A stretch of DNA of 28,761 nucleotides from a candidate division TA06 bacterium DG_78 (GTDB taxonomy: Bacteria; Hydrothermota; Tepidihabitantia; SM23-42): contig LJNI01000005.1 of the NCBI GenBank assembly GCA_001303225.1, forward strand, positions 1 through 28,761. The letters run 5' to 3'. Of this stretch, positions 6,114-26,858 are shown in pieces (positions within the stretch are counted from its first letter, which is position 1; each line of letters begins with the position of its first letter). The notes under the pieces are model-generated. The model made no database searches, was not told the DNA's origin, and saw nothing but the letters and a program-made list of their open reading frames with translations. Position numbers and translations under genes: made by a program.

Positions 6114-9100
6114 ATGAAGTGTCCTAAATGCGGCGTTGAGAATCCAGAAAAAAATAAATTTTGCAGTGAATGCGGTTTTAATCTTCAAGAATTATCGATT
6201 GCTGACCGCATGGATCTCGTAAGAAAAGATATTCCTGAATCCCTGGTTAAGAAAATCCTCCTCACAAAAGATACTATCGAAAAAGAACGGAGAGACGTAA
6301 CAGTCATTTTTGTAGATATCTCGGGTTCTACAACGATATCAGAGTCCCTCGACCCCGAGGAATTAACACTCCTCATGAATGATTGTTTCCGCAGATTGAG
6401 TGCCATGGTGTATCGCTACGAGGGCATTGTTGATAAATTTATCGGAGACTGTGTCATGGCAATTTTTGGTGCACCGGTTGCGCATGAAGATGACCCAGAA
6501 CGTGCCATCCTCGCTTGCCTCGATATGCAAACAGCAATTAATGAAATCAATGCGCGTCTGGATAAATCCCAGCGGAAACTCGAGATCCATTCAGGTATTA
6601 ACACTGGTAAAGTTATTGCCGGTAAGGTCGGGTCGGACCTACAAATGGAATATACAGTGATGGGAGATACTGTCAATGTTGCCCAGCGGCTTAAAGATAT
6701 CGCATCACCAGGTACGATTCTCGTTGGCCCAGAAACATATAATCGTACAAAACATGCCTTTGATTTTATGTCTTTAGAGGCAGTGCGTCTCAAAGGGAAG
6801 ACGTTGAGTATTACACCGTATGAAGTCATAGGAAAAAAGTGGGGGTCAGAATTCGGATTAACAGCGATACGGTCTGATCTCATTGGCCGCGATGCAGAGT
6901 TTTCAAAACTCAAGGAGGGATATACGAACCTTCTTAAAGGCCAATCATCAATTTACCTGGTTAAAGGAGACGTCGGTGTAGGTAAGTCAAGGCTCCTCTA
7001 TGAATTTAAGAAATTTTTGACAATTTCCGCTCCTGATGTTGCCTTGATTGATGGGCGTGGTGTGTCATACGAAAGTTCGATTCCTTTTAAATCGTTTGCA
7101 GATAGTCTGAGGAATTATTTGCTTGCCGAGCAATCTCTGGTAACTGACGACGCATCCACCGGTATCAAAGCAAGAATTGAGACGTATTGTGGTGATGAAG
7201 CTGATGAAGTCGCGCCGTACCTTTATAAGCTGCTCAATATTGAACTCAATGAAAAACAGCTTGAGAAAACTCGGCACCTTGATAGTCATTCTCTCCAATT
7301 GCAGATATTCTTAGCGGTGGCAACACTATTTGAGAAACTTGCCGAAGAAAAATCGATTGTGTACATCATCGACGATATTCAATGGATCGATTCTGCATCC
7401 TTGGAGCTCATAAGTTTTCTCGTCCCTCTGACAAAGAAGATAAAGATAATTTTCTATCTGAGTTACCGAATCGGTGAGCTCGCTTCTATAAAAACTTTGA
7501 TCAACACAATTGAACATGAGAGCAGTGACATTACTGAGGAGATTGATCTTAAGAATTTGAACCCTGAACACAGTGTTACGTTGATTAATAACCTTATTGG
7601 TCAAGATATACCAGATTCTTTGCGAGAGTATATTATTCACAAAAGTGGTGGTAACCCGTTTTTTATCGAAGAAATTGTGCGGAGTATTATTGAATCTGGT
7701 ATGCTTGTTGGTAAAGGAGATGTAACACAGGAGATCAAAATCCCCGGTTCTATCGAAGCTGCCGTGACCTCTCGGATCGATAGTCTTAATAAAGAAGCAA
7801 AGTACCTTTTGAAAATTGCGTCAATAATCGGCCGTTCATTTCCTGGGGAATTACTCGAAGAGGTCATTAAAGACAAGGAAATCTATAAACACATCGATGA
7901 ACTCGAAGAAGCAGAATTCATTATAAAAATCAATAAAGATAACAGAATCTATTATGCATTTCGCCATCCACTCTTTCATGAAGCAACGTACGGTAGCCTT
8001 CTCAAGGGTGAGCGTACCATATACCATAAAGTCATTGCCGAGATAATCGAAACCAAATTTAAGGAAAAAATAGATGGATATTTTGCGACATTAGCGCAAC
8101 ATTACTACAATTGTGACAATTTAGAAAAGGCAAGGGAATATTCATTGCGTGCAGGTGATGAAGCAGCAGCGCTCTACGCAAATGACGAAGCACTAACTCA
8201 CTATAACCGGGCTCTGTCAGTCGTTGACGACGAGGTCACTAAGGCAATAATATTTGAAAAAATAGGTGACATTGAATTATTGGTTGGCAGAATTGACGAC
8301 GCTGCTCACCATTTCCATGAAGCGAGACAAATTGTTGAAGATAAACAAATAGAAGCGAGGCTCACTCTCAAAAACGCAATGGTTATGAAAGTGACTGGGA
8401 AGATTGATGAAGGCATTGGTATGATGAGACAGGCACTGGCACGTATTGAAGGTACTGTGACACCAGTCCTCATCGATGTCAAATACAATCTGGCAAATGT
8501 CCTTTTAGAAGCAAAGGCAGAAACAAAACAAGCAGCAACATTGGTTGATGAAGGTATTGAACACGCAAAGAGGCTTAGGGATGCAAAATTGGAGGCGGAT
8601 GGCTTAAGGTTAAAAGGACAAATTTTGTGGCGCATGGGAAAGGGTGAACAAGCAGTTACCAAAATTCTGCATGAATGCCAACGTTTGTATGAAAGATTCA
8701 AAGAACAAAATTCCTTGGCTCAACTCTTTATCTTTATGGGTATTATTGCTCGTTCAGAGGGGCGTTTAAACATAGCAATCGATTACATGAAAAAGGCAAT
8801 CAGTCTTGCGAAGAAGATTGGCCACAAGAGACAACTCTCGATTGCGTATAATAATCTGGGAGTCTATTATGATTTAATTGGTGATTTGAAGAGTTCGCTC
8901 AACTACCATGAAGAGAATTTAGCAATCCGTCAGCAACTCGGTGATAAAAAGGGAGAAGCAATAGTATACTATAATATCGGTACTTTAAAAAAACAAACTG
9001 ACCAACGGAATGTTGGCTTGGATTATTTTAATAAGGCAAAGGAAATTTTTGAGGACATAAATGATGTACGCGGTACGATTATTTCATATCTGACAATTGC

Positions 9101-9716
9101 CGAGGAACTATTTCACCTTAATGAAAAGAAGGAAGCTGTCGAGTACTATGAGAAGGCGTGGCGTATTGCCCAAGAAAAACAGGATAAAATTTTGTTGAGC
9201 GAAGTCTATTATCAATATGGTGTTTACTTCTTGAATATAAAGGATACTAATAAAGCTTTGGAATTTTTCGAATATGCAAGGGCGCCGATACTCGAGGAGG
9301 GCGATAAGACAAGGGTATCACGTTTCTATTCGAGCCTCGCAAAGGTATACATCGAAAAGAAAGATCCTCAAGCCATGCAATATGCCCAGGATGGCCTCAA
9401 CTTTGCAACTGAGGCAAGAGTGAAACAAGATGAGATTGATTGTTTGAAAACACTAGGAAGAGCCCAGGCGCTCGTTACAGGTCAGGTTGATGAAGGTATA
9501 AAAAATATTAAGCGGGCAATTGCAATGGCAAAAGAGAAAAACTATGTTATTCAACGAGCACGGGGATTTTTTGCTCTTGGTGAGGTGTTTATCAAAGACA
9601 ATAAACCACAGCAGGCATTGAAGCATCTCGAACGAGCAAAGAAGATATTTAGTGAATTCAACGCAAAATTTCATGTAGAGGAAACCGAGCAATTAATACA
9701 AAAAATCTCATCGTAG
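6114..9716 (+). CDS. Class III adenylate cyclase fused to STAND/AAA ATPase and TPR domains
   Basis: A 1200-residue cytoplasmic signalling protein, probably making cAMP. Domains in order: a zinc ribbon (CPKC...CSEC, residues 3-20); a class III cyclase (about 60-240) with metal-binding D68 (FVDIS) and D112 (IGDCV), adenine-selecting K108 and D185, and transition-state N188 and R192; a P-loop ATPase (about 255-560) with Walker A GDVGVGKS (285-292) and Walker B ending DDIQWID (D420, D421); then TPR-like helical repeats from about 660 to the end. All key cyclase residues are present, so activity is expected. The layout is that of cyclase-AAA-TPR proteins in which ATPase and repeats sense a ligand or partner. 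No membrane segment is seen. The promoter geometry indicates a leaderless message. A related but GGDEF-headed protein lies at 14643-17870. Confidence 0.9.
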   Translation: MKCPKCGVENPEKNKFCSECGFNLQELSIADRMDLVRKDIPESLVKKILLTKDTIEKERRDVTVIFVDISGSTTISESLDPEELTLLMNDCFRRLSAMVYRYEGIVDKFIGDCVMAIFGAPVAHEDDPERAILACLDMQTAINEINARLDKSQRKLEIHSGINTGKVIAGKVGSDLQMEYTVMGDTVNVAQRLKDIASPGTILVGPETYNRTKHAFDFMSLEAVRLKGKTLSITPYEVIGKKWGSEFGLTAIRSDLIGRDAEFSKLKEGYTNLLKGQSSIYLVKGDVGVGKSRLLYEFKKFLTISAPDVALIDGRGVSYESSIPFKSFADSLRNYLLAEQSLVTDDASTGIKARIETYCGDEADEVAPYLYKLLNIELNEKQLEKTRHLDSHSLQLQIFLAVATLFEKLAEEKSIVYIIDDIQWIDSASLELISFLVPLTKKIKIIFYLSYRIGELASIKTLINTIEHESSDITEEIDLKNLNPEHSVTLINNLIGQDIPDSLREYIIHKSGGNPFFIEEIVRSIIESGMLVGKGDVTQEIKIPGSIEAAVTSRIDSLNKEAKYLLKIASIIGRSFPGELLEEVIKDKEIYKHIDELEEAEFIIKINKDNRIYYAFRHPLFHEATYGSLLKGERTIYHKVIAEIIETKFKEKIDGYFATLAQHYYNCDNLEKAREYSLRAGDEAAALYANDEALTHYNRALSVVDDEVTKAIIFEKIGDIELLVGRIDDAAHHFHEARQIVEDKQIEARLTLKNAMVMKVTGKIDEGIGMMRQALARIEGTVTPVLIDVKYNLANVLLEAKAETKQAATLVDEGIEHAKRLRDAKLEADGLRLKGQILWRMGKGEQAVTKILHECQRLYERFKEQNSLAQLFIFMGIIARSEGRLNIAIDYMKKAISLAKKIGHKRQLSIAYNNLGVYYDLIGDLKSSLNYHEENLAIRQQLGDKKGEAIVYYNIGTLKKQTDQRNVGLDYFNKAKEIFEDINDVRGTIISYLTIAEELFHLNEKKEAVEYYEKAWRIAQEKQDKILLSEVYYQYGVYFLNIKDTNKALEFFEYARAPILEEGDKTRVSRFYSSLAKVYIEKKDPQAMQYAQDGLNFATEARVKQDEIDCLKTLGRAQALVTGQVDEGIKNIKRAIAMAKEKNYVIQRARGFFALGEVFIKDNKPQQALKHLERAKKIFSEFNAKFHVEETEQLIQKISS

Positions 9717-9785: not shown

Positions 9786-12700
9786 ATGATTTTTGCAGAA
9801 GTGACAAAACACTTAAATTTTCCTGAAATTGAACATCTCATCTTGAAGTTCTGGGATGATTGTAATATTTTTGACAAATATAAAGAAAAGAATAAGGGTA
9901 AAAAGAAATGGTCATTTCAGGACGGACCAATCACTGCTAATGGCCCAATGGGTGTGCACCATGCTTGGGGGCGTGCTTACAAAGATATTTTTCAACGCTA
10001 TAAAACAATGAAAGGTTTCTCTCAACGTTATCAGAATGGATTTGATTGTCAGGGTCTATGGGTGGAGGTTGGAATAGAGCGGGAACTTGGGTTCAAATCC
10101 AAGAGGGATATTGAGAAGTATGGCATCGACAAATTTGTAGAAAGGTGTAAGGAAAGTGTACATAAATATTCTATGCTTCAAACTGAGCAGTCGATTAGAC
10201 TTGGCATGTGGATGGACTGGGGTGACTGGAAGACTTCTATGGATGATAACGAGTGGTTACAGAAGAGTCATTCATACTACACCATGAGCGAAGTGAATAA
10301 CTATACAATCTGGCATTTCTTGAAAAAATGTCATGAGCGTGGGTTTCTCTATGAGGGTGTTGACGTAATGCCCTGGTGCGCGCGTTGTGGTACCGCAATC
10401 AGTGATATGGAAATTGCTACTGAAGGCTATCAGGAGCTAACCCATAAGGCAGTGATCATCCGGTTTCCGATCATCGGCAAGAAAGACGAATATCTTTTAG
10501 TCTGGACAACCACACCGTGGACACTTACCTCTAATACTGGCGTTGCAGTTCATCCTGATTTAACCTATGTGAAAGTAAAGAACAATGGTGCAACATATTA
10601 CCTCAGTAAAAACCTCCTCCATGTTTTGAAGGGGAGATATGAAGTATTACAGGAACTTGCCGGCAGAAAACTTTTGGGGTCCACCTATGAAGGCCCCTTT
10701 GATTACTTGCCTGCTCAGAAAGGTATTGTCCATAAAGTGATTCCATGGGAAGAAGTGAGCGAGAGTGAAGGGACTGGATTGGTGCACATCGCTCCAGGTT
10801 GTGGTAAAGAAGACTTTGCCCTAGGTAAGGAATTCGATCTGAAAACTGTTGCGCCATTGGATGAACTGGGTATTTATGTTGATGGATTTGACTGGCTCAC
10901 AGGTAGAGATGTGAAGGATGTTGCCGAACCCATAATTGAAGATTTAAAGAAACGTAACATACTTTATAATGTTGAAGATTATAGACACCGCTATCCAGTT
11001 TGCTGGCGCTGTGATAGTGAATTGATTTTTCGGTTGGTTGATGAGTGGTTTATCAATATGGATAATCTGCGTCATAAAATCATGGATGTTGCAAAACGGG
11101 TAGAACGATGGATACCTTCATTCGGATTGGACCGTGAATTGGATTGGTTGCGTAATATGGCAGATTGGTGTATTTCAAGAAAACGATACTGGGGTTTGGC
11201 ATTGCCGATCTGGAAGTGTCAGTGTGGGTATTTTATGGTCATCGGCTCCAAAGATGAACTGAGAGCGAAAGCCATGGAAGGTTGGAATGAGTTTGATGGT
11301 CATTCACCTCATCGACCGTGGGTTGATAAGATAAAGATACAATGTGAAAAGTGTGGCGCACCTGTTTCGCGCATTCCTGATGTAGGAAGTCCGTGGCTTG
11401 ATGCAGGCATTGTTCCGTATTCAACAATACGACCACCTGATGATATGCACACAATACATAATGGCTACCCATATAATAAGACTTATTGGAAAGAGTGGTT
11501 CCCAGCTGATTTTATTACAGAATCTTTTCCTGGTCAATTCAGAAATTGGTTTTACGCAATCCTCACCATGAGTACGGTTTTAGAAGAGCGGGCACCCTTC
11601 AAAGAAATCCTAGGCTATGCGACAATGCGTGATGAGCATGGCGAAGAGATGCACAAGAGTAAAGGTAATGCCATTGAATTTGATGAGGCCGCTGAGAAAG
11701 TTGGTGCTGATGTGATGCGCTGGATGTTTGCCAAACACAATCCAGTTCAGAACCTCAATTTTGGATATGGTCCAGCGAAAGAAATAAAGAAAATCTTACT
11801 TACACTGTGGAATGTCCATTCATTTTTTGTTACCTATGCCAACATTGATGATTTTAATCCACGAGGAAAGACAATAAACGAAAAGAACCTCACCACGTTG
11901 GATCGATGGATACTCTCACGTCTCAATACGTTCATTGTAAGCGGTGATACATTTTACGAAAAATACGAACTTATGTCAGTTGTCAAAGAGGCTGAGAAAT
12001 TTTTTGATGACCTCTCAAACTGGTATGTCCGTAGGAGTCGTCGCAGATTTTGGAAGTCAGAGAATGATGCAGACAAAGAGACAGCTTATTTAGTACTCTA
12101 CAAATGCTTGTTGCAATTGATTAAAATTATATCACCGATCATGCCTTTTCTTACCGAACACATGTACCAGAATCTTATTAGACGCATTGATAGTGGTGCT
12201 CCTGAAAGTATCCACCTCGTTGATTTCTCTACCGCAGATAAAAATCTGATTGATGCGAGCCTGGAGGATGATGTTACATTCACCCGAACCATTGTTTCTC
12301 TGGGTCGAGCAGCACGCAATAAAGCGAATATTAAAATCCGTCAACCGCTCGGCGAAATGATTGTTACACTTGATGATCGACAATTATCTACTGATGATCA
12401 AGCGATTATTAAACAAGAATTAAACATCAGAACACTTACCTGTGTTGAGGCACAAGAGTTGGATAAGTTACTACAGTATAGTGTCGCGCCAAATTTTACC
12501 ACGCTTGGACCAAAATTTGGGAAATCTGTCAAAAAAATTGCAACGGTCATTACATCACTCAATGAGAAAGAAATTATAACTTTAGACAGCACCGGCGTGC
12601 TACGAAAAAAATGTAATGGTGAGGATATTGAGATACATACGGAAGATGTTGAAATTAAGAGGAGCGAACAACAGGGATGGTCAGTAGTAGTAGAAGAGAA

Positions 12701-13004
12701 AATAGGCGTTGGTATTAGTACAGCAATAACAAAAGAATTAGAGAACGAGGGTCTGGCACGTGAGCTCATCCATAAGATTCAACTGTTGCGTAAACAGGCA
12801 GATTTTAACTTGGTCGATCGTATACGGATTTTTTATCAGACAAGTTCTAAACTCAAAGAAGCAATTCAGGACAACCTTGAATATTTAAAGACTGAAACAC
12901 TGGCAGTGGAGGTGTCAGAAGGTGCGGTTCAGGGAGATATTGAAGAGGTCCTAAATATTAATGGTATAGAAACCAAAATTGCCTTGCAAAGGGTTAAAAA
13001 GTAA
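9786..13004 (+). CDS. ileS: Isoleucyl-tRNA synthetase with GVHH in place of the HxGH signature
   Basis: Charges tRNA-Ile with isoleucine. The 1072-residue length and C-terminal region fit the longer (type 2, eukaryote/archaeon/Thermus-like) branch. The ATP-binding signature, HVGH in Thermus-type enzymes, aligns to G56-V-H-H59 within NGPMGVHHAWGRAYKD. The usual GWDxHGLPxE reads GFDCQGLWVE. The KMSKS loop reads EMHKSKGN with the key Lys at 624. Other family blocks are intact: VWTTTPWTLTSNTGVAV of the editing domain, HIAPGCGKEDF, WCISRKRYWGLALPIWKC, SPWLDAG and FRNWFYAIL. Cysteine pairs (CxC after PIWK, CEKC) suggest zinc binding. It stands alone with a consensus promoter and no leader. It is the only synthetase in the window; whether the genome holds a second ileS cannot be seen. 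Confidence 0.95.
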   Translation: MIFAEVTKHLNFPEIEHLILKFWDDCNIFDKYKEKNKGKKKWSFQDGPITANGPMGVHHAWGRAYKDIFQRYKTMKGFSQRYQNGFDCQGLWVEVGIERELGFKSKRDIEKYGIDKFVERCKESVHKYSMLQTEQSIRLGMWMDWGDWKTSMDDNEWLQKSHSYYTMSEVNNYTIWHFLKKCHERGFLYEGVDVMPWCARCGTAISDMEIATEGYQELTHKAVIIRFPIIGKKDEYLLVWTTTPWTLTSNTGVAVHPDLTYVKVKNNGATYYLSKNLLHVLKGRYEVLQELAGRKLLGSTYEGPFDYLPAQKGIVHKVIPWEEVSESEGTGLVHIAPGCGKEDFALGKEFDLKTVAPLDELGIYVDGFDWLTGRDVKDVAEPIIEDLKKRNILYNVEDYRHRYPVCWRCDSELIFRLVDEWFINMDNLRHKIMDVAKRVERWIPSFGLDRELDWLRNMADWCISRKRYWGLALPIWKCQCGYFMVIGSKDELRAKAMEGWNEFDGHSPHRPWVDKIKIQCEKCGAPVSRIPDVGSPWLDAGIVPYSTIRPPDDMHTIHNGYPYNKTYWKEWFPADFITESFPGQFRNWFYAILTMSTVLEERAPFKEILGYATMRDEHGEEMHKSKGNAIEFDEAAEKVGADVMRWMFAKHNPVQNLNFGYGPAKEIKKILLTLWNVHSFFVTYANIDDFNPRGKTINEKNLTTLDRWILSRLNTFIVSGDTFYEKYELMSVVKEAEKFFDDLSNWYVRRSRRRFWKSENDADKETAYLVLYKCLLQLIKIISPIMPFLTEHMYQNLIRRIDSGAPESIHLVDFSTADKNLIDASLEDDVTFTRTIVSLGRAARNKANIKIRQPLGEMIVTLDDRQLSTDDQAIIKQELNIRTLTCVEAQELDKLLQYSVAPNFTTLGPKFGKSVKKIATVITSLNEKEIITLDSTGVLRKKCNGEDIEIHTEDVEIKRSEQQGWSVVVEEKIGVGISTAITKELENEGLARELIHKIQLLRKQADFNLVDRIRIFYQTSSKLKEAIQDNLEYLKTETLAVEVSEGAVQGDIEEVLNINGIETKIALQRVKK

Positions 13005-13030: not shown

Positions 13031-14426
13031 TTATCTCAATAGTGTTAGTTTCTTGACCTGACTATAATCTGGAATTTCTAATGTATAGAAATAGATCCCT
13101 GCTGGTACGTTTTTACCATTCATGTCAATTCCATCCCAGATGACGTGGTCTGACAGTCGTATCGTCTTATCGTCCCATTGTCTTATCAATCGTCCTGTAG
13201 CATCATACATTTTGAGTTCCACGCTTGGCACTCTACGCTGTACGTGATACGCGATTTCCGTATTTTTAGTGAATGGATTAGGAATGTTTTGCAGTAGCTC
13301 GATATTTTGATACTCTACCAATGCAACATCATTTTCAGTAATGCCAATTAAACTTGTGTCGACAGTAAACCATGACCACTCCATAGCACTTGCGCCATAC
13401 GGTGGATCTTCGTAACCGATAACAGCCCAATAGTATAGTTTACCGTGTTCTAATTGCGTCGTATCTCCAACCAGAGAAAGTGTGGTGTCATCTCCGCTAT
13501 CTGTTGCGTGCCGCCACACAATATGTGCTCCTAATCTGTTCGGCATTGGCATGGTGTCCCAAACAATAACCTCGCAATCAGCACTATTAGAATTCCATAC
13601 GAAATCAGGTTGGAATGTCGTAATGGTGTCATCTTGGGCTGGTTCGATGAGTATCGGAATAGGAGAGTACACCTTCAAGCGCAGGTCGTGCCCAGACTGC
13701 CTCCATGCCAGCTGGCCAAGGTGTATACACGACACCTGCATAGAACAGCCAGAAGTCAACGACACTGAGCCAGATGAACATCTCTGTCGAATCTCTGACT
13801 TGATATCGACCCCAGATGCTATCTCCGGATGCTCCATCCCAATGTAATCCATTATCTTCCATGCGATTGCCCCAGCCCATGATGAGTGGTGCCTTCGAAT
13901 AGGTTGAATCAATATACTCATTCCCCCAGTTATGGTATATGAATACCTGACAGTAGCAGAGATAGTCTTCATTTCCCGGCCAGGCAGACTGCAGCGACGG
14001 TGAGAGTTTGATCGTATGGAAAGCGAGCAAATTTGGAGGATTATCAAGCGATGGATAGTAGTCTAACAATAAGTCAATACCAGCGATTGTATCACCCTGC
14101 ACAATCACACTATCGTCTCTAAAATGAGATGGATCATTAGGTCCAGTATACACGCCATTACTATCAGCATCCATATACCTTGCTATCCAATAGACGCCAT
14201 CTGCTACACTACCAAGTCTGTATGGTCCAGTATCATTCGGCATTACCCAATATACTGGACTTCCTTGAAAATCTGGATTATCATACGCCTCGACATGAAT
14301 ATCACCGTGTTTTGGTCCCCGATAGTAAACAGTACTAGTAATCACACCAACAGCAAATATGTAGTGAACTAAGATGAGATTTATGATTGTAATCCAAGAC
14401 AGTGGGACTACTTTTTTCTTTTTCAC
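13031..14426 (-). pseudogene. Secreted protein with C-terminal sorting-type domain, broken by a frameshift
   Basis: Read on the reverse strand, one protein is spread over two frames. The upstream part starts best at GTG 14426, with AAGGTGG (14432-14438) 5 bases before it, and gives a signal peptide (KKKK then a hydrophobic run to about residue 28). It continues with secreted, Trp/Tyr/Asp-rich sequence through YTPWPAGMEAVW, then degenerates to a stop at 13629. The downstream part, LRLKVYSPIPILIEPAQDD onward, lies in the next frame to 13031. It ends in NIPNPFTKNTEIAYHV...WDGIDMNGKNVPAGIYFYTLE, a FlgD/type IX-like sorting domain. The frames join if one base is dropped in the CCC at 13691-13693. 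This could be a real inactivation, an assembly error or, less likely, programmed frameshifting. A GTG at 14498 would lengthen the N-terminus but has no ribosome binding site. Confidence 0.75.
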
Positions 14427-14642
14427 ACTACCCACCTTGTAAAAAATATAGAGCACCTGTAGCATCTTGAATAAAAGATATAGTATCTGCTCGCCCACGT
14501 AGCAAAATATGTGCCAAGATTACCATTTAAATATCTCGAAATATAACGAGTTTGATCTGGAAAAGTGTTTCACCATGAGGCATTGTTTCATCTCGATACA
14601 CTTAAGTCTTGATTGGAGAGAATAAATATCGGTACCTATGCA
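14427..14642. other. Intergenic gap between two reverse-strand genes
   Basis: About 215 bases lie between the stop of the GGDEF/STAND gene and the start of the secreted-protein gene. Apart from the AAGGTGG site next to GTG 14426, I find no convincing -35/-10 pair with the 16-base spacing seen elsewhere and no clear terminator. Confidence 0.4.
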
Positions 14643-17600
14643 TTATCCATTTTTCTTGAGCATTTTGTCCGCCTTTACTTTCCATCCCTTTGCACCCAAC
14701 GTAGTAAAAACTTTTACTGCTTTTTTCATCTGCTTCTTGTACGCTGTTTTGTCACCTTTTTGTAATTCAGATATTCCCATGTAGTAGTACACAATTCCCG
14801 TGCTCAGACGATCTCCCATGTCATCATATATTGCTAACGCTTTCTTTGCATGCTTGTCTGCCTTTGTGAAATCTTCGATTTCGACAAAGTAGCGAGCCAT
14901 GAAAAGATTACTATCGCCTTCGAATTTTTTGGGCCTCAATGTTTCAGGAATCTCATTCAATTTTTGTATCGTTTCTTCAAACTTCTCAATTTCTTTCTGT
15001 CCTAAATAGAAATCACAGAGAAATGCGAGCGCATCTCGTAGCATTCGCTGTGACTTTAGACTCTTTGCCTGGTTATATACCTTGTCAATATATTCTTTTG
15101 CCTCCGTGTATTTTCCCATCGATAAATAGAGGTAGGCGAGAGACGCGAGATTGATGAACGTCAACTCATTAGACTTTGTCCTTTCGGCTATTTTATGCGA
15201 GTCATCAAAATAGCGTAATGACCTATCGTAATTTCCCAAGTGCATATGGATAGTACCGATATTTTTCAATGCCAATGCTTCACAATATCTGTTCTCAGTA
15301 TCGTTTGCGATTTTTAATGCATCTTCAGAAAATTTCAACCCCTCACTATAATTTCCCCAATCGCCGTTGATGATCCCAATATTGTTGAGCACCAATGCTT
15401 CGCCATACTTGTTTCCAATTTCCCTGAATATGTTTAATGCGTCTTCATAAATTTTTAGCGCTTCTTTGTAATTCCCGAAACTCATGTAAATAAGGCCGAT
15501 GTTATTGAGCGCTGCTCCTTCACGATATTTATCACCGCGTTCAGCCTTTGTTTTCAGTGAGTCTTCAAAATGTCGTAGTGCTTTATTATGGTCGCCCAGG
15601 TTCATATAGATAAGACCTTGATTATTGAGCACCCGGGCTTCAAAATTTTTATCTCCAATTTCCCTGAATATTAAGAGCGATTCTTCATAGTTCTTGAGTG
15701 CATTGTTGTATTCACCGAAGAATCCTTGAGTGTTACCGATTGCGTTCAAGACCAAAGCAATTCCTTTTTTATCACTGAGTTCTTCATAGAGTTTTATACA
15801 CTCATTTGCCTCCTCAGTTGCTTTAGAGTATTGAGAGATATTAACATAGAGAGATGCTTTTCGAAATCTGATATCCACTTCCCGTTTCTTATCGGCGATT
15901 GCTTGTGCTAACTTGAGACCCTCTTCAAAATTCTTCATTGCTCCCTCATTATCACCGATAAAACTCAAGACATCAGCGCGTTTTAACAAACAGTCGATGC
16001 GCGTTCGTTTATGTTCTATGTCGTGCTGGTTTCGCAAAAGCTCTTCAGCCCAGGTGTAGTAGCGAATTGCACTCTGATTTGCATACTGCTCGCGTGCCCG
16101 ATCACCAGATTCTAAACAGTACACAACACCCTTTGTTCTATCCATCCCTCGGTAGAAGTGAAATGCCAATTCCTCAGTAACTTCGTGCTCGCGGCCTTGG
16201 TATTGTTCCTCAATCTTCTCCCCAATTCTCTTATGGAGCATTCTTCCTTTCATGTCTGATACATATCGCTTATAGATGGCACCGCGAGAAATTTCCTCCT
16301 GAAACTCGATACGGTCTTCTCGTTCCTTGATGAATCCCAATCGTTTAATTGTTTCAATCACACCAATTATATGACCTTCGTTGTAACCAGTAATATCTTT
16401 GATGATATCAATATCAAATCTGCCGATGACACTGGCAATCTCTAATATCTCTCGGCCTTCTTTACTCAACCCCTGATATTTACGTTCTGCAATATCGTCA
16501 ATACTCTTCGGAATGATTTTAGCACCTGGTCCCTCAAAATGCCACGTATCACCCTCCACATGGAGATAACCAGCTTCATTCAGTCCCTTGATGATTTCTT
16601 CTACATAGAATGGATTACCACCACTGCCTTGTTCGATATATGTCACCAATTCGTTGTCTGGTTTCTCTCCAATAATGATATTAACCATCTGTTGAATCCC
16701 GCTGCGCTCGAGGGGTTCTAATCCGACCTTCTTCACTGCAGTCTCACGACTGATATAAGAAGTGAAATCTTCCAAGACATCGGTTTTTTCTTCCTGACGA
16801 TAAATAAATATGAACGTAATAGGACTATTACGTAATGACCGTAATAAATACTTAATAACTTCGGTCGTTTCCCTGTCTGACCACTGCATATTGTCGATTA
16901 TAATGATTTTTTTTGTTTCGCCGAGTTCGATGATTCTGCGGATACTCTCGTATAAGCGATATTTATCTAACACCAAACCAATCTCATCGATTCGCTCCTT
17001 CACCTCTTCCATAATCTCGGGAATCAGCTTGCCAATTTCTATTTTGTACGCAAAGGGGATGTCATTAATTATTTTTTTGCCCTGTCGATTTATTTTATAT
17101 TTAATTATTTCACGTATTGGGTAGTATGATATACCCTCAAAAAATGCAAGACAGTCGCTCCATAAAATTTCTCTGCCAGTAATCGTATTTAATACTTCTT
17201 TCACTAATCTCGTTTTTCCAATACCAATATTCCCTTCGATCAGTGCTGCCCGTACGTATCCATTTCCTTCAGTTAAGAACCCTTTGAGTATCTCTTTCTC
17301 TTCTCGCCTTCCAACATACACCCTTGTCGGTAATTCGATCCGTTTCTTGTGGATCGTGCCTATTCTTCCCCTGCCACTCCGCTTTGCGTCGTAGAGTGAT
17401 TCATCCGCAATCTTTAGTAACTCGTCGAACTCTCCGCCATCTGCCGGATATGAAGCAATCCCTGCACTGATACTAATGTTGAGACCTCCAAAATTTCGCT
17501 TTTTACAACGATCAAGAATACGGGCATAAATCTGCTGGGTATCCTTGCTCTCGGTGTTCGACATGACACAAACAAATTCATCACCACCATAGCGTACAAC

Positions 17601-17870
17601 CGTGTCAGTAGCCCGTAATGTGCCCGTTAAAAATTGTGAAAATTCTTTAATAACCTCGTCACCCTTGAGATGTCCGTGGGTGTCATTGATTTCTTTGAAG
17701 TGGTCAATATCAACAATGACGACAGAAAAGGGTATACTCCGTTCTTGGAGTTCTTCTATTTCCTTTTTTGTTTTCTTTAAGTAACGTCGATTATATATAC
17801 CAGTTAAATCATCAAGGTATGCTAAAGACCTTTTTTTGGTTGCTCGACGCTTTTTCGTACCTTCTTTCAT
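14643..17870 (-). CDS. GGDEF diguanylate cyclase fused to STAND/AAA ATPase and TPR domains
   Basis: A 1075-residue cytoplasmic protein, probably making cyclic di-GMP. Domains in order: GGDEF (about 15-175) with D54 and D56 of the VDIDHFKEIND metal site, active site G95-G-D-E-F99 and an inhibitory I-site R86-A-T-D89 exactly five residues before it; a P-loop ATPase (about 185-500) with Walker A GNIGIGKT (213-220) and Walker B ending DNMQWSD (D326); then TPR-like repeats with a 40-residue period (NNIGLIYMSFGNYKEAL and similar) from about 600 to 1060. The ATPase and TPR parts follow the same plan as the adenylate cyclase protein at 6114, with the catalytic head exchanged. The start ATG sits just after a consensus promoter, with a leader of about 5 bases and no ribosome binding site. 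Stop TAA is at 14643-14645. Confidence 0.9.
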   Translation of the reverse strand: MKEGTKKRRATKKRSLAYLDDLTGIYNRRYLKKTKKEIEELQERSIPFSVVIVDIDHFKEINDTHGHLKGDEVIKEFSQFLTGTLRATDTVVRYGGDEFVCVMSNTESKDTQQIYARILDRCKKRNFGGLNISISAGIASYPADGGEFDELLKIADESLYDAKRSGRGRIGTIHKKRIELPTRVYVGRREEKEILKGFLTEGNGYVRAALIEGNIGIGKTRLVKEVLNTITGREILWSDCLAFFEGISYYPIREIIKYKINRQGKKIINDIPFAYKIEIGKLIPEIMEEVKERIDEIGLVLDKYRLYESIRRIIELGETKKIIIIDNMQWSDRETTEVIKYLLRSLRNSPITFIFIYRQEEKTDVLEDFTSYISRETAVKKVGLEPLERSGIQQMVNIIIGEKPDNELVTYIEQGSGGNPFYVEEIIKGLNEAGYLHVEGDTWHFEGPGAKIIPKSIDDIAERKYQGLSKEGREILEIASVIGRFDIDIIKDITGYNEGHIIGVIETIKRLGFIKEREDRIEFQEEISRGAIYKRYVSDMKGRMLHKRIGEKIEEQYQGREHEVTEELAFHFYRGMDRTKGVVYCLESGDRAREQYANQSAIRYYTWAEELLRNQHDIEHKRTRIDCLLKRADVLSFIGDNEGAMKNFEEGLKLAQAIADKKREVDIRFRKASLYVNISQYSKATEEANECIKLYEELSDKKGIALVLNAIGNTQGFFGEYNNALKNYEESLLIFREIGDKNFEARVLNNQGLIYMNLGDHNKALRHFEDSLKTKAERGDKYREGAALNNIGLIYMSFGNYKEALKIYEDALNIFREIGNKYGEALVLNNIGIINGDWGNYSEGLKFSEDALKIANDTENRYCEALALKNIGTIHMHLGNYDRSLRYFDDSHKIAERTKSNELTFINLASLAYLYLSMGKYTEAKEYIDKVYNQAKSLKSQRMLRDALAFLCDFYLGQKEIEKFEETIQKLNEIPETLRPKKFEGDSNLFMARYFVEIEDFTKADKHAKKALAIYDDMGDRLSTGIVYYYMGISELQKGDKTAYKKQMKKAVKVFTTLGAKGWKVKADKMLKKNG

Positions 17871-20449: not shown

Positions 20450-21667
20450 ATGCAACCACTGATAACAGTTGGAATAATCATTTTAATTGGGTTTATCTTT
20501 GGTGAAATCGCCAACAAAATCAGATTACCTAAAGTCACCGGTTATATTTGTGCTGGGATTCTTTTGAATCCTGGTCTATTTAACATTATTCCTCAAGATT
20601 TTGTAATCCATACGGATCTCGTTACGAATATAGCGCTCTCATTTATTACTTTTTCTGTAGGTGGCACATTATTCTATTCTCACATTAAACGAATGGGTAA
20701 AGGAATAAGCTACATAACAATATGTGAAGCAGAGTGCGCGTTCTTAATAGTAATTTTGGGATTTCTGTTATTATCACCGGTCTTCATCCATTTCCCTGGC
20801 GCTTCGTGGCTCACTACATTCATTCCGATAAGCATACTGGTTGGTTCTCTTGCGTCACCCACTGATCCTACTGCCACGTTGGCAGTCGTTCATGAATATA
20901 AAGCAAAGGGAGATGTTACTTCAACAATAATGGGTGTTGCTGCATTTGATGATGCATTAGGTATAATAAATTATAGTTTCGCATTCACTATAGCAGGCGT
21001 CTTGATACTTCACAAAAATTTTAGTGTACATTCTTCATTATTACAACCCTTTATTATCATCTTTGGATCAATATTTGTAGGTTGTATGTTTGGTGTTGTG
21101 TTAAATTGGGTAACAATGATTACTAAAAAAGAAACTGAGGGGACCTTGATTGTAGTGATATTTGGATTTCTATCACTCTGTTTTGGCGTTGCGAAAGTGC
21201 TTGGAGTTGATGCATTATTGACCACCATGGTGATGGGTATAGTGGTGGTTAATTTTAATCCCTTACGCGCGAAAATATTTAAAGTTTTGGAACGATACAC
21301 AGAGGAATTAATATTTATTTTATTTTTTACACTGAGTGGTATGCATCTAAAATTTTCTGTCTTGGCGAATTTTTATATACTTGTTTTCTTCTTTGTTGTA
21401 CTAAGAACCATCGGAAAATTTTTAGGAGTAATTATCGGCTCTCATATTTCGAAAACATCAAGAAAAATAAGAAAATATACAACAGGTGGTTTGATTCCAC
21501 AGGGTGGTATTGTGGTTGGTCTCGCCTTGCTCATTAAACAGAACCCTGCCTTTGATACTATTGCAGATATTATTATAGGTATCATCATCGGCGCAACAAT
21601 TATCCATGAGCTCATAGGACCTATTTCTGCAAGATTATCCCTTAAAAAAGCAGGTGATATAAAGTGA
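20450..21667 (+). CDS. Cation:proton antiporter, CPA family (paralog A)
   Basis: A 405-residue membrane protein with about 12 hydrophobic segments that probably exchanges Na+ or K+ for protons. The crossing-helix motif is SPTDPTATLAVV (T138-D139-P140) and the ion-binding pair is D167-D168 in AAFDDALGI. The double Asp points to the electrogenic CPA2-like type. The C-terminal signature is GLIPQGGIVVGLALL and HELIGP. N-terminal repeats such as IRLPKVTGYICAGILLNP align with the three paralogs downstream, but those have TAPA where this has TDPT. The conserved tail LKKAGDIK is shared by all four. It precedes the CBS gene by 191 bases with an independent promoter between them. Confidence 0.88.
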   Translation: MQPLITVGIIILIGFIFGEIANKIRLPKVTGYICAGILLNPGLFNIIPQDFVIHTDLVTNIALSFITFSVGGTLFYSHIKRMGKGISYITICEAECAFLIVILGFLLLSPVFIHFPGASWLTTFIPISILVGSLASPTDPTATLAVVHEYKAKGDVTSTIMGVAAFDDALGIINYSFAFTIAGVLILHKNFSVHSSLLQPFIIIFGSIFVGCMFGVVLNWVTMITKKETEGTLIVVIFGFLSLCFGVAKVLGVDALLTTMVMGIVVVNFNPLRAKIFKVLERYTEELIFILFFTLSGMHLKFSVLANFYILVFFFVVLRTIGKFLGVIIGSHISKTSRKIRKYTTGGLIPQGGIVVGLALLIKQNPAFDTIADIIIGIIIGATIIHELIGPISARLSLKKAGDIK

Positions 21668-21809
21668 GGGAACAAATTATCTCAGATTAATTATCCTTAT
21701 AGAATTTATTTCACCGACCCCTCTGCGAGAATTATAGTATCGTTCTTCTTTATTAAACCTATCCCTTTAGAGTTTTTCAGTAATGTTTCGGCTAAAATTT
21801 AATAGCCTA

Positions 21810-21837
21810 TTGACAATCATAGTTTTCCGGGTATGTT
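21810..21837 (+). promoter_or_regulatory. Promoter of the CBS/antiporter B operon
   Basis: Perfect TTGACA (21810-21815), 16-base spacer, TATGTT (21832-21837). The first ATG after it (21843, 5 bases on) opens a nine-codon frame. The CBS gene ATG (21859) follows with an AAGGG 6 bases upstream. Confidence 0.65.
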
Positions 21838-21842
21838 CAATT

Positions 21843-21872
21843 ATGAAAAGGGTGCTTCATGAAACACGTTAA
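21843..21872 (+). CDS. Possible leaderless nine-codon upstream peptide
   Basis: ATG 21843 lies 5 bases after the -10 box in the leaderless position and encodes MKRVLHETR before TAA. It overlaps the start of the CBS gene in another frame. It could be a leader peptide that couples translation, or the chance product of an ATG in the leader. It is too short to judge by sequence. Confidence 0.25.
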   Translation: MKRVLHETR

Positions 21873-22329
21873 AGATGTGATGTTCAGACAAGTAATAACA
21901 GTGCATAGACATACGACTTTGAGACAATTACTTAGCAAATTTGCAGAATTCCATACGTTCCCTATAGTTCCAGTGGTTGAAAGAGATAACATTTTGGTGG
22001 GTATCATTACTCTTAAAAATTTATTAGATCTGTTGAAACCAGCAGAACCTGAAATACTTAAAACGATACCATTCTTAGATGAAAAACCCATTGAGATATC
22101 AAGTGTAGAACTTTCACCAGAAATGGGTCATCTCGTTGTCGTAGATGATATTATGGAAAATAAGTTTTTTGCAATTCAAGAGGATATGTCTATTGAAGAA
22201 GCACTGAGGTTGATGAGACTGCATAATAAAGAGCAACTTCCGGTCATAAATAAAGATAAAAAATTCACTGGTGTTATTGGTATATTCGATATTGTAACCC
22301 ACCTTTTCAGTGGGAAAGGAATTTTTTAA
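21859..22329 (+). CDS. Tandem CBS-domain protein
   Basis: A 156-residue soluble protein with two CBS domains, a Bateman module that usually binds adenine nucleotides or similar ligands. CBS1 is about residues 1-58 (KDVMFRQVITVHRHTTLRQL), CBS2 about 94-155 (VVDDIMENKFFAIQED, SIEEALRLMRLHN). Between them is a 35-residue linker ending in LSPEMGHLVV (85-94), which is also present in the second CBS protein of the window. It is followed 3 bases later by antiporter B, so the pair is one operon and the CBS module probably gates that antiporter. AAGGG at 21848-21852 could serve as its ribosome binding site. Confidence 0.88.
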   Translation: MKHVKDVMFRQVITVHRHTTLRQLLSKFAEFHTFPIVPVVERDNILVGIITLKNLLDLLKPAEPEILKTIPFLDEKPIEISSVELSPEMGHLVVVDDIMENKFFAIQEDMSIEEALRLMRLHNKEQLPVINKDKKFTGVIGIFDIVTHLFSGKGIF

Positions 22330-22332
22330 GAA

Positions 22333-23544
22333 ATGTTCAACACCATTCTTAGTCTCGGTACTGTATTGATCATCGGACTATTCGGTGCTAGAATTTTTAG
22401 CAAGATTAGTCTTCCTTCGGTGACTGCTTATATAGTATTCGGAATTATTCTAGGCCCCTATGTACTAAATTTTGTTTCTCCAGATATGCTCCGATCATCA
22501 GCACTGATTTCAACTATTGCATTAAGCTTGGTTGCATTTAGTCTTGGCCAAAATTTCACGATTTCGAAATTGCATAATATTGGAAAATCCATATTTGCGA
22601 TATCGATTGGTGAAGTCTTAGGTTCTTTTATTTTGGTTTCGCTCGCAGTATTTTTAATCGCAAGACAGTCATTATCAATAGCTCTTATTCTCGGCGCAAT
22701 TGCACCAGCAACAGCACCTGCAGCCGTCGTGATGGTTACACGAGAATATAGAGCAAGAGGGCGATTCACAGATACGCTCTTAGGTGTGGTGGCGATCGAT
22801 GATGCCTGGAGCATTATGCTTTTTGCATTCTGCATCGCTATTGCAAAGAGTCTCACTGGAGCACATACCGGAATATTTGCTACTATCTTTTCTGATATAA
22901 TCCATGGATTTTGGGAAGTTTTGGGTGGTTTAGCACTCGGGGTCATAATAGGTTTCATATTTTCATATTTTCTAAAGTACATTAATACATTACCACATCT
23001 TTTAATATATATTTTAGGGCTAATATTTATCAATACAGGGGCATCTATTTTACTCAATGTTTCTTTACTTTTGGCAAATATGGCACTGGGTGCTACTGTG
23101 GCAAATAAAGTGAAGATGAGTGAGAATATTTTCGATGTTCTCAGGGGATTCGATCCCCCAATATATTTACTCTTTTTTATACTTGCCGGTGCGAATCTTG
23201 AAATCCCGAGTATATACTCACTTAGTATTCTTGGGATACTATATGTCTTAACAAGACTCCCGGGCGAAATGCTGGGTGCATTTATTGGCGCGCATATTGC
23301 AAAGGCGGATAAGAACATCAAGAAATATTTGGGACTGGGGCTTGCACCGCAAGCAGGTGTCGCAATAGGACTTGCATTATTAACTAAGAGCTACTTCCCT
23401 GGTGCTATTGGAGACAAGATTCTTTCAACAATTATTGTTACTACAATTATCTATGAACTCATTGGGCCATTTCTCGTAAGGATAGCACTCAAAAAAGCCG
23501 GGGAAATTGATAAATTACCACACGACTACAGGAAGGTTCAGTAA
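22333..23544 (+). CDS. Cation:proton antiporter, CPA family (paralog B)
   Basis: A 403-residue membrane protein of about 12 segments. The crossing-helix motif is APATAPAAVVMV (TAPA 127-130), and the ion pair is D156-D157 (VAIDDAWSI). The late signature is GLAPQAGVAIGLALL and YELIGP. It is closer to paralogs C and D than to A: all three share REYRARG-type loops, the DDAW motif and TAPA. The CBS gene is immediately upstream (3-base gap), with an AAAGGA inside its end as ribosome binding site. No terminator is visible after it; 42 bases downstream is the next promoter. Confidence 0.88.
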   Translation: MFNTILSLGTVLIIGLFGARIFSKISLPSVTAYIVFGIILGPYVLNFVSPDMLRSSALISTIALSLVAFSLGQNFTISKLHNIGKSIFAISIGEVLGSFILVSLAVFLIARQSLSIALILGAIAPATAPAAVVMVTREYRARGRFTDTLLGVVAIDDAWSIMLFAFCIAIAKSLTGAHTGIFATIFSDIIHGFWEVLGGLALGVIIGFIFSYFLKYINTLPHLLIYILGLIFINTGASILLNVSLLLANMALGATVANKVKMSENIFDVLRGFDPPIYLLFFILAGANLEIPSIYSLSILGILYVLTRLPGEMLGAFIGAHIAKADKNIKKYLGLGLAPQAGVAIGLALLTKSYFPGAIGDKILSTIIVTTIIYELIGPFLVRIALKKAGEIDKLPHDYRKVQ

Positions 23545-24032: not shown

Positions 24033-25208
24033 TCAGATCTCGCCTGCTTTTTGCAAACCGTATTTAGCACACAATGGTCCAATCAATTCATAAATAACAG
24101 TAGTTGCAGTAATGGTGGTGAATATAAATTCACCATATTTTGGATATAATTCCTTTGCAATGAGCGCGACCCCCAGGGCTACTCCAGCTTGAGGAACAAG
24201 TCCCCATGCTAAATACTGACCGATATTTTTTTCGGCATGGCTTAATGCAGCACCCAATTTGACACCAATGAATTTTCCGATAACTCTGAAAATAATATAG
24301 AGGATACCCACTAACCCAATACGCGGTATCATGCTGATTTCAAGATTCGCTCCGACGAGCACAAAGAAACTCAAGAAAAGCACTGGGTCGACTCTGCCGA
24401 GCGTATCGAAAAAAATGGTTCTCTCTTTTGATATATTAGCGATTATTAATCCTAATGCCATATTTGTTAATAAGGGCGATACGTGAAATGTGATAGATAA
24501 ACCAACTGATAAGAGGATAAAACCTGCAGTTACCGTTAATAACTCATCTTTCGTCGTGACAAATCGTGCGATGAAATGGAGAGCCAAACCTACCAAGCCA
24601 CCGAGAACTACAGCCGCGATAATTTCTAAAAAAGCTTCCAGAATAACACCTGCTGTAAAAAAACCGACAGAGATGGCACTTGCAATGGTAATAGCAAATG
24701 CAGAGAAAATAAGACACCATGCATCGTCGAGCGCAACAACTCTCAAGAGCATATTGGTCACAGGACCACGTGCCCGAAATTCTCTGATAATCATTACTGT
24801 AGCAGCTGGTGCTGTTGCCGAGGCAGCAGCACCCAAAACGAATGCTGGGTGGATCGGCAGGTGATTCAAAATCAAATAGAGTATCATTATTACTGTAACG
24901 ATGGCCCACGCAAAACCTGCTTCTAACACAGAAATCCAGATGACTGGTTTCCCTGCTGCTTTGAGGTCTTTAAGTGTGAAATGTGTACCGAGCATGAAGG
25001 CGATGATGCCCAAAACAAAGTTTGAGATGAAATCAGATGCATTGATTAACTGTACTGGGATAAAATTGAGCAGCCGAGGTCCAATAAGAATGCCGATTAA
25101 GAGATAGGCAGTTACCGCAGGAAAATTTATTTTGTGCAGTATTTTCGCGCCTGCATACCCCGCCACGACAATTATTGCTAAGCCGAGAATACTATTCTGT
25201 AGCAGCAA
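24033..25208 (-). CDS. Cation:proton antiporter, CPA family (paralog C)
   Basis: A 391-residue membrane protein, about 12 segments. The crossing-helix motif is ASATAPAATVMI (TAPA 132-135) and the ion pair is D161-D162 (VALDDAWCL). The end signature is GLVPQAGVALGVALI and YELIGP, with tail LQKAGEI. It is most similar to paralog D, with shared runs such as GAAASATAPAATV and DDAWCLIF; the two look like a local tandem duplication. The likely start is TTG 25208, which overlaps the end of paralog D by 17 bases and has only a weak AGG upstream, so expression depends on coupling to D. The exact start is uncertain. Confidence 0.87.
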   Translation of the reverse strand: MLLQNSILGLAIIVVAGYAGAKILHKINFPAVTAYLLIGILIGPRLLNFIPVQLINASDFISNFVLGIIAFMLGTHFTLKDLKAAGKPVIWISVLEAGFAWAIVTVIMILYLILNHLPIHPAFVLGAAASATAPAATVMIIREFRARGPVTNMLLRVVALDDAWCLIFSAFAITIASAISVGFFTAGVILEAFLEIIAAVVLGGLVGLALHFIARFVTTKDELLTVTAGFILLSVGLSITFHVSPLLTNMALGLIIANISKERTIFFDTLGRVDPVLFLSFFVLVGANLEISMIPRIGLVGILYIIFRVIGKFIGVKLGAALSHAEKNIGQYLAWGLVPQAGVALGVALIAKELYPKYGEFIFTTITATTVIYELIGPLCAKYGLQKAGEI

Positions 25209-26370
25209 TTTCGCCTGCTTTTTGTAGACTGTATTTTGTTAAGAGTGGTCCAAATAATTCAAAAATCACAGTTGTTGCGGCAATGATAGTGAAGATAAAA
25301 TTGCCGTAGTCTGGAAACGTGGATTTTGCGACAAGCCCAATACCGAGGGCGACACCAGCTTGTGGTGTTAACGCCAAGCCGAGCCAATTTTCCGCTGGTT
25401 TTGGTGCACTACTTATTTTTGCTCCAATTTTTGCACCATATACTTTACCAATTATCCGGAAGAGGACATAGAGTATACCGACGATTCCCATATTATAGAG
25501 AATACCAAAATCCAGGTGAGCACCGGATAGGATAAAGAAAACAAGATATAGTGGTGCATCAACAGAGCGCAATTCTTCAAAGAATTTATAATTTTCCCGG
25601 GCACGATTGATTACCATGAGTCCCATAGTCATTGACGACAAGAGGACAGAGAGCTTGAACGCAATGGAGAGACCAACGTTGAGTAGTATGAAGCCTAAGA
25701 TAAGAATGATTAATTCATCTCTCGTTGTCACGAAGCGACTGAAGAATGACGTAATGTAACCGAGTAGTGCACCAACAATGATTGCGCCAAAAATTTCTCC
25801 TAACCCAGCAAAGATAATTACCATATCGAATACTTCAGCACGCATCGCATTACCGAAGGCAATTGCCATCGCGGCAAATATCAGACACCAGGCATCGTCG
25901 ATTGCGACAACTTTAAGCAAGAGTTCAGTTACATAACCAGTAGACCGATACTCCCTGATAACCAAGACAGTTGCGGCTGGTGCGGTCGCTGATGCTGCGG
26001 CGCCGAGCACAAGAGCAGGGTAGAGAGGCAATTTGATAATTACGAAGTAGATAATGAGTGCAGCAGAAACTAATACCCACGCGCCGAGTGCTGCAATGAT
26101 TGAAATCCAGATGACCTGTTTCATACCTTCTTTAATTTTATCGAAACGGAAATTTTCACCCAGACTGAACGCGATAATGCCCAATACTAAGTTTGTAAAA
26201 AAATCAGCACCAGCAAATATTTCTTCGGTCACAAGATTGAATACATGGGGACCGATGAGAATGCCGACGAGAAGGAATGCAGTTACACTTGGCAGCCGAA
26301 CGTATTTTAAAAGGCGTGCGCCGACAAATCCTAATAATAGAATTAAACCAGCGCTCAGGAGGTTGTTCAC
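25192..26370 (-). CDS. Cation:proton antiporter, CPA family (paralog D)
   Basis: A 392-residue membrane protein, about 12 segments. It has TAPA at residues 129-132 (ASATAPAATVLV), the ion pair D158-D159 (VAIDDAWCL) and late motifs GLALTPQAGVALGIGLV and FELFGP, where the paralogs have YELIGP. The N-terminus VRLPSVTAFLLVGILIGP matches the other three. The start is GTG 26370, overlapping the CBS stop by four bases (GTGA), so translation is coupled. The gene order CBS-D-C makes a single reverse-strand operon that mirrors the forward CBS-B operon. Confidence 0.88.
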   Translation of the reverse strand: MNNLLSAGLILLLGFVGARLLKYVRLPSVTAFLLVGILIGPHVFNLVTEEIFAGADFFTNLVLGIIAFSLGENFRFDKIKEGMKQVIWISIIAALGAWVLVSAALIIYFVIIKLPLYPALVLGAAASATAPAATVLVIREYRSTGYVTELLLKVVAIDDAWCLIFAAMAIAFGNAMRAEVFDMVIIFAGLGEIFGAIIVGALLGYITSFFSRFVTTRDELIILILGFILLNVGLSIAFKLSVLLSSMTMGLMVINRARENYKFFEELRSVDAPLYLVFFILSGAHLDFGILYNMGIVGILYVLFRIIGKVYGAKIGAKISSAPKPAENWLGLALTPQAGVALGIGLVAKSTFPDYGNFIFTIIAATTVIFELFGPLLTKYSLQKAGEIAATE

Positions 26371-26858
26371 TTTTCTATGATGTCGAGCTCTTTAAAGATG
26401 TATACGAGAATGTCGAGCAAAGAGAGCATGCCGACCAATTTTTTCTCCGAGACAACTGGGAGTATTTCAACATTATGGAGCCTCATGAGCCGGCGCGCCT
26501 CTTTGATCGTATCGGTTTCCTTAATAGAGATAAATTTTGTGTTGATAATATCATCAACAACAATGAGTGTCCCCATCTCTGGAGAGAGGTCGAGGTCGAG
26601 ATCCTCATCAGCAACTTTTTCGACAAAGGGCATTCTTTCTACAATTTCACTGACTGATTGCGAGAATGGTCTGAAGATGTTGAGAATTCCCCTGTAGTTC
26701 ACGATACCTAAGAGCACACCATCTGTATCGACGACAGGCAGCATATGTCGGTTGGTTTTCTGCATCAATTTTATTAGTTGCATAAGGGTAGTCGACGGTT
26801 TCACGGTGACAACATCTCGACGCATCACTTTGTTAACTGATAGGTTTTCTATTTCCAT
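26367..26858 (-). CDS. Tandem CBS-domain protein (second copy)
   Basis: A 163-residue Bateman-module protein. CBS1 is about residues 7-62 (VNKVMRRDVVTVKPSTTLMQL, LPVVDTDGVLLGIV), CBS2 about 100-158 (VVDDIINTKFISIKETDTIKEARRLM, EILPVVSEKKLVGMLS). The linker ends LSPEMGTLIV (91-100), matching the first CBS protein. It is the first gene of the reverse operon and is joined to antiporter D by a GTGA overlap. The ATG lies 6 bases after a -10 box, so the operon message is predicted leaderless. The likely role is nucleotide-responsive control of antiporters D and C; this is inferred from position and fold. Confidence 0.88.
   Translation of the reverse strand: MEIENLSVNKVMRRDVVTVKPSTTLMQLIKLMQKTNRHMLPVVDTDGVLLGIVNYRGILNIFRPFSQSVSEIVERMPFVEKVADEDLDLDLSPEMGTLIVVDDIINTKFISIKETDTIKEARRLMRLHNVEILPVVSEKKLVGMLSLLDILVYIFKELDIIEK

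Follow-up and report, generated by a model that had tools for sequence, protein, structure and literature searches.

The HIGH motif (HXGH) is the textbook signature of class I aminoacyl-tRNA synthetases. Here we describe an isoleucyl-tRNA synthetase (IleRS) in which this motif reads GVHH, encoded by ileS at positions 9786 to 13004 on the plus strand of a 28,761-nucleotide stretch of contig LJNI01000005.1 (candidate division TA06 bacterium DG_78), hereafter called the window. The swap itself has already been published; what is new is the wider rebuilding of the active site that accompanies it and the lack of any reversal among the sampled relatives in its clade, which we call clade A.

Type 2 enzymes (IleRS2) were surveyed by Brkic et al. 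(2023; PMC10485003), whose text, as far as we draw on it here and below, reports G/AXHH in 86 sequences and HXGH in 77, distributed over two clades, with at least two origins of G/AXHH plus a reversion in Deinococcus-Thermus. That study links GXHH to mupirocin hyper-resistance, Ki being raised up to 1000-fold, and mentions Deinococcus radiodurans and Streptomyces griseus as species whose IleRS2 is naturally G/AXHH. The former enzyme (ALHH) is fully active with a mupirocin Ki of 6.6 mM, against 8.1 uM for its HVGH version, in which kcat drops from 45.5 to 24.4 per s; the latter has a Ki of about 10 mM according to the text of PMC4861432. Both combine the motif class of the window enzyme with a Ki in the mM range. 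In Priestia megaterium IleRS2, cited by the first-pass annotation of this stretch as a case in which the exchange gives extreme resistance while keeping activity, the link to hyper-resistance is indeed on record (PMC10485003), but the native motif is HVGH and GVHH is a laboratory-made mutant. Its Ki rose from 1.08 to 460 uM, and it remained active with a kcat reduced from 66 to 6.2 per s; engineered GVHH lowered the activity of the Thermus thermophilus enzyme too. Crystal structures of the engineered P. megaterium enzyme show the third-position His replacing the absent first His (PMC10485003).

Compared with these systems, the window IleRS shares its fold with the P. megaterium structures (8c8u, 8c8v, 8c8w and 8c9d), and the mutant 8c8w has the identical GVHH. 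The native enzyme differs in its HVGH, GWDTHGLPVE and KMSKS motifs and is 32-34% identical to the window IleRS. T. thermophilus IleRS2 (1ILE) agrees in fold, pocket and editing residues, but carries HVGH, DTHGLP and KMSKS and is placed within clade B, the sister of clade A. A likeness is also seen to the "minor IleRS2 clade" of Brkic et al., a deep IleRS2 branch in which GXHH is ancestral, and according to a legend in that paper, Planctomycetota and Chloroflexi are undersampled where IleRS2 first branches; that clade differs in comprising few sequences with low bootstrap support, and the text on it is silent on the HGLP motif (PMC10485003). Judging from its taxa and sister position, clade A is probably this minor clade. 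In the text of the literature searched we found no description of changes in the HGLP turn or KMSKS loop linked to GXHH.

The open reading frame has 1072 codons plus a stop, with zero internal stops on reading the sequence, and its product matches TIGR00392, the model for IleRS, with 729.9 bits (curated cut-off 621.4). The features of the gene and its product, assigned by alignment unless stated otherwise, are the following (Tt, T. thermophilus numbering).

9786..13004, plus strand: ileS, isoleucine--tRNA ligase type 2, 1072 aa (TIGR00392 score and tree position)
9951..9962, plus strand: GVHH, the swapped HXGH, residues 56-59 (alignment; helix 57-75 in the model)
10038..10067, plus strand: GFDCQGLWVE, residues 85-94, counterpart of GWDTHGLPVE, with Q89 at Tt H87 and W92 at Tt P90
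10503..10523, plus strand: WTTTPWT, residues 240-246, Thr-rich strip of the editing site, intact
10785..10814, plus strand: editing-domain H334 to D343 (Tt H319 and D328), both intact
11394..11408, plus strand: WLDAG, residues 537-541, aligned with Tt W518-Y-D-S-G, Trp retained
11520..11549, plus strand: ESFPGQFRNW, residues 579-588, aligned with Tt EGIDQTRGW and longer by one residue, Gln and Trp retained, Asp gone
11646..11660, plus strand: EMHKS, residues 621-625, in the place of KMSKS, second Lys retained

In 1ILE the equivalents are HVGH 54-57, GWDTHGLPVE 83-92 and KMSKS 591-595. The gap-free N-terminal alignment of the window protein, GPMGVHHAWGRAYKD, with 1ILE, GLPHVGHAQARSYKD, shows that the first His and the Gly have exchanged places, as the first-pass annotation had stated; its coordinates, strand and enzyme identity agree with the TIGR00392 match and the alignment, and the two further changes it had listed, DCQGLWVE and EMHKS, are found as GFDCQGLWVE for GWDTHGLPVE and EMHKS for KMSKS. 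With His at position 3 and Gly at position 1, residues 56-59 fall within the G/AXHH class of IleRS2. In the AlphaFold2 model (mean predicted local distance difference test 89.5), GVHH starts helix 57-75, and the best structural matches of the model are IleRS2 structures from P. megaterium, including 8c8w, the engineered GVHH mutant. No CxxC pair follows C520/C523, which itself precedes the KMSKS loop, so the protein is without the C-terminal four-Cys zinc cluster.

The 29 relatives L005-L033 (62-81% identity) carry GVHH and DCQGLW in 28 cases, the remaining one being without its N-terminus, and EMHKS or DMHKS in all 29. Since these relatives share the motifs, the changes are neither sequencing error nor chance. 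Among the 120 matches listed, the 19 homologues with a named source come from candidate division WOR-3 (10), "bacterium" (7) and Latescibacteria (2), which makes WOR-3 the likely group of the host. We conclude that the gene encodes an ordinary, presumably essential housekeeping IleRS2 that carries the published motif swap.

To place the enzyme, sequences were collected from homologues, a genome scan, relatives and genomes of other phyla. Removal of 12 of 588 proteins for being shorter than 800 residues left 576, of which 518 were unique, and 1ILE brought the set to 519; selection by shared 4-mers gave 231 representatives, and 230 tree rows after L071 was dropped. The scan used the patterns M[GM]VHHAW and QNGFDCQ, and 80 of its loci (L082-L161) were kept; its matching stretches, at least 569, were unused as a member count, one gene being able to yield two. 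Because the motif columns were left out of the tree, the uniform XHH of clade A described below is not circular. Three check loci (L355-L357) were examined after the trees and are part of none.

The window protein lies within clade A, which holds 124 of the 230 rows (one without its N-terminus) and is sister to clade B, 58 other bacterial IleRS2 rows including Thermus. Both branches have support of 100 in the FastTree tree and in a 59-row LG+C20 tree. Type 1 (IleRS1) rows form a separate group, again with support of 100, and the window protein groups with IleRS2; the comparison with type 1 and type 2 enzymes that the first-pass annotation had proposed thus assigns it to type 2 and to a clade that is XHH throughout. 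The placement of the archaeal rows is weak (support of 8 in the 59-row tree). When all XHH rows were constrained to a single clade (32 rows against 27), the topology was rejected by the approximately unbiased test (p 9.5e-63), which argues against a single origin of the swap with no later loss and agrees with the published text (PMC10485003).

Within clade A, position 3 of the motif is His in 123 of 123 rows with an N-terminus, while position 1 is Gly in 116, Ala in 6 and Met in 1. Tt H87 is replaced by Gln in all 123, and Tt P90 by Trp in 120 and His in 3. The KMSKS loop has Lys at its first position in a single row and His at its third in 118, and Tt D553, in the EGIDQTRGW block, is replaced by Gly in 110 rows and by Glu in 11. 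Clade B is divided between 31 XHH and 27 HXG rows; DxHG[LM]P and the first Lys are present in 58 of 58, and MHK in none. Up to Tt 649, 20 columns separate the two clades at thresholds of 90% in A and 80% in B, among them P47I, P53M, W84F, H87Q, P90W, Y519L, S521A and S593H. The motif context is common to 260 of the 519 unique sequences.

Four clade-A IleRS on contigs titled Brockarchaeota, Bathyarchaeota or Thorarchaeota (L137, L148, L149 and L154), and a fifth from a genome of the same phylum as L148 (L271), nest among bacterial rows; archaea likely acquired them from bacteria, unless the contigs are mis-binned. Of 51 genomes in the phylum of G111, a record titled Bathyarchaeota, 2 gave a match above 1000 bits.

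The two clades differ in how the motif has changed. By parsimony, clade B underwent six changes between HXGH and XHH over a tree length of 31.6, five of them forced by well-supported branches, and clade A none over 56.6. The conditional probability that all six fall in B is 0.002 with all rows, 0.014 without the scan-derived loci and 0.024 when database proteins are left out too; it was used in place of a plug-in Poisson p of 2e-5 for zero reversals, which we discarded. A motif test covered 201 genomes of one phylum (that of G108, which also holds Thermogemmatispora, G115; Chloroflexota by inference, although the record of G108 itself bears the title Rubrobacter). In 92 of them [G/A]XHH stands directly before AWGRx[YF]KD, and HXGH in this context was seen in none of the 201. 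The A-like loci without the AWGR context among those read (L337, L338, L355 and L356) are XHH too. This pattern fits entrenchment, of which one clade pair and parsimony counts are no proof.

A profile search of the genome of origin (2.09 Mb, 79.5% complete) recovered one IleRS and no second ileS, the copy that the first-pass annotation had suggested looking for; the remaining three matches to the IleRS model are, by their motifs, two pieces of valyl-tRNA synthetase and one leucyl-tRNA synthetase. The window gene is very likely the sole IleRS of its bacterium. The IleRS model was also run on 10 relatives from the same family: a single full-length IleRS above the cut-off was seen in 6, one (G012) had no full-length IleRS above the cut-off, and no second ileS was seen in any. 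The other three (G004, G005 and G018) have ileS in pieces. A truly split gene in these one-contig genomes was rejected, the breaks falling at scaffold gaps: each coincides with a run of exactly 100 N or lies no more than about 25 bases from one.

Considering these results, we find it quite probable that the window gene is a housekeeping IleRS2 from a deep clade that is XHH in every sampled row (G/AXHH, once MXHH), active and proofreading, whose rebuilt motifs lock GXHH in, with insensitivity to mupirocin as a by-product. By analogy with the engineered P. megaterium GVHH enzyme, H58, at the third position, would take over the role of the absent first His in amino-acid activation. Conservation of the pocket and editing residues predicts both activity and proofreading. 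Rebuilding affects the HGLP turn, the DQTRGW block, the KMSKS loop and the strip that precedes the HIGH motif; these changes are unnecessary for a working GXHH, yet together they probably lock it in, given that no reversal was seen in clade A. The His at position 3 would clash with mupirocin, so strong insensitivity should follow as a by-product. Hyper-resistance of the window enzyme, and of clade A, is plausible on this analogy, and strong insensitivity is predicted by extrapolation from other IleRS2 branches, whose mupirocin data may not transfer to clade A.

Several points weigh against this interpretation. The activity and mupirocin response ascribed to clade A are inferred from residue conservation and analogy, and a second ileS could lie in the missing part of the incomplete genome. 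The p-value for lock-in is modest in the least biased subset (0.024) and comes from parsimony counts on one clade pair, and part of the A sample stems from a scan whose pattern M[GM]VHHAW favours GXHH. Both patterns of the genome test need the AWGR context, and 109 of the 201 genomes match neither and were read only in part. Finally, L356, an A-like fragment of 480 residues from the end of a contig in G199, has GIHH with DCHGLW, that is, the Trp without the Gln, so that the Gln of DxQGLW is not universal; it is perhaps an intermediate state.

More tentatively, and with somewhat less confidence than would make it our favoured view, clade A may represent another stable way of building the class I active site and not a swapped copy of the first. 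GXHH would be irreversible there through the GPITANNPM strip, the Gln and Trp of DxQGLW, the GQFRNW block and the extra His of the KMSKS loop, while the two states interchange in clade B, and mupirocin insensitivity would come along as a by-product. If so, restoring HXGH would cripple a clade-A enzyme, and the insensitivity would not be a selected trait. The two clades form a natural experiment, in that the identical swap can be reversed in clade B but is apparently fixed in clade A, a contrast that makes the entrenchment of a catalytic motif directly testable.

Alternatively, the altered motif may have been selected and maintained by mupirocin-like antibiotics in the habitat. The authors of the survey propose such selection, and the Ki increase of up to 1000-fold with GXHH speaks for it (PMC10485003). 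However, the 80 scan loci are titled across many bacterial phyla, mostly uncultured, and a few archaea, which would make steady exposure to one Pseudomonas product unlikely. Moreover, resistance should vanish without the drug, as may occur in clade B, and clade A has no reversal. We therefore regard this explanation as unlikely.

A further possibility, raised by the first-pass annotation, is that the three motif changes compensate each other, GXHH working only with altered HGLP and KMSKS motifs. All 123 clade-A rows do join XHH with Q87 and W/H90, and 118 have the third-position KMSKS His; the activity cost of engineered GVHH in the P. megaterium and T. thermophilus enzymes (PMC10485003) points the same way. 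Nevertheless, 31 of the 58 clade-B rows are XHH with DxHGLP intact and without MHK, so the extra changes are not required for GXHH. This combination, with DTHGLP and KMSKS, is natural and common: it is found in 121 GIHH rows, made up of Acetoanaerobium noterae (L081) and the 120 relatives nearest to it among the matches listed. Ktedonobacter racemifer (G109) even has two GXHH IleRS2, one with clade-A motifs (L168; GVHH, DSQGLW, PMHKS) and one of clade B (L175; GVHH, DTHGLP, KMSKS). We take Streptomyces IleRS2 to have HGLP and KMSKS-like motifs, and the D. radiodurans and S. griseus enzymes are probably of B type with both. The full activity of the D. radiodurans ALHH enzyme (PMC10485003), the five clade-A rows without the xMHKS His and the fragment L356 also speak against a strict requirement, and compensation in this sense appears decidedly improbable.

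What stands of the suggestion is a one-way link: Trp, rarely His, in place of the HGLP-turn Pro is only found with XHH, and W/H at Tt 90 occurs in none of the 31 B-XHH rows and none of the 73 HXG rows. Q87 without W90 is seen in 6 of the 73 HXG rows, and the search around G111 supplied every one of these 6. As for MHKS, it was rejected as a marker of GXHH, since outside clade A it tracks loss of the fourth His of the HIGH motif: xMHKS is present in 23 of the 73 HXG-type rows, 21 of which are without that His (Fisher 4e-10). This association spans about two lineages only and is thus not independent evidence.

That the protein is a decayed or moonlighting IleRS that has lost tRNA charging is very improbable: three signature motifs are altered simultaneously, but the reading frame is intact, it encodes the only IleRS found in the genome, the pocket and editing residues are retained, and the motif context is widely shared. 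An acquired resistance gene of MupA/MupB type can practically be dismissed, as the protein matches the MupA and MupB models with 652.6 and 645.4 bits, far under the NCBIfam cut-offs of 1900, is about 34% identical to plasmid MupA, and has as its counterpart the only full-length IleRS seen in 6 of the 10 family relatives.

In the wider phylum, most of 60 genomes outscore clade A on the IleRS model, and the 30 loci taken from them (L034-L063) have IleRS1-type motifs. One genome (G099; contigs C270 and C223, loci L051 and L066) has an IleRS1-type and a clade-A IleRS together; it shows 9% contamination and may be a mixed bin. Among 28 IleRS1 representatives (loci among L034-L068, plus L352), all but one of which belong to the phylum of the window, Thr, Gln or Leu replaces the fourth HXGH residue in 24, the tally in the alignment being HLGQ 8, HIGT 7, HLGT 6, HMGT 2, HMGL 1, HIGH 2 and HLGH 2. 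The text of PMC10485003 gives HXGH for all IleRS1, sequences without the catalytic motif having been removed beforehand. Rows joining xMHKS with a missing fourth His come from the phylum of G111 (for instance L272-L287 and L345) and from IleRS1 (for instance L038-L068).

Two large regulator-like proteins are encoded near ileS, one at 6114-9716 (+), with TPR-type matches and a match to the TOMM kinase/cyclase model below its cut-off, and one at 14643-17870 (-), with GGDEF and TPR-type matches. Two overlapping reading frames of 338 and 289 aa lie in different frames at 13031-14498 (-), and the first ends in a CHU_C sorting domain that scores barely above the cut-off; they are possibly one frameshifted gene. 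Further along, 20450-23544 (+) and 24033-26858 (-) are facing clusters, each encoding two Na+/H+ exchangers together with a single protein that has two CBS stretches.
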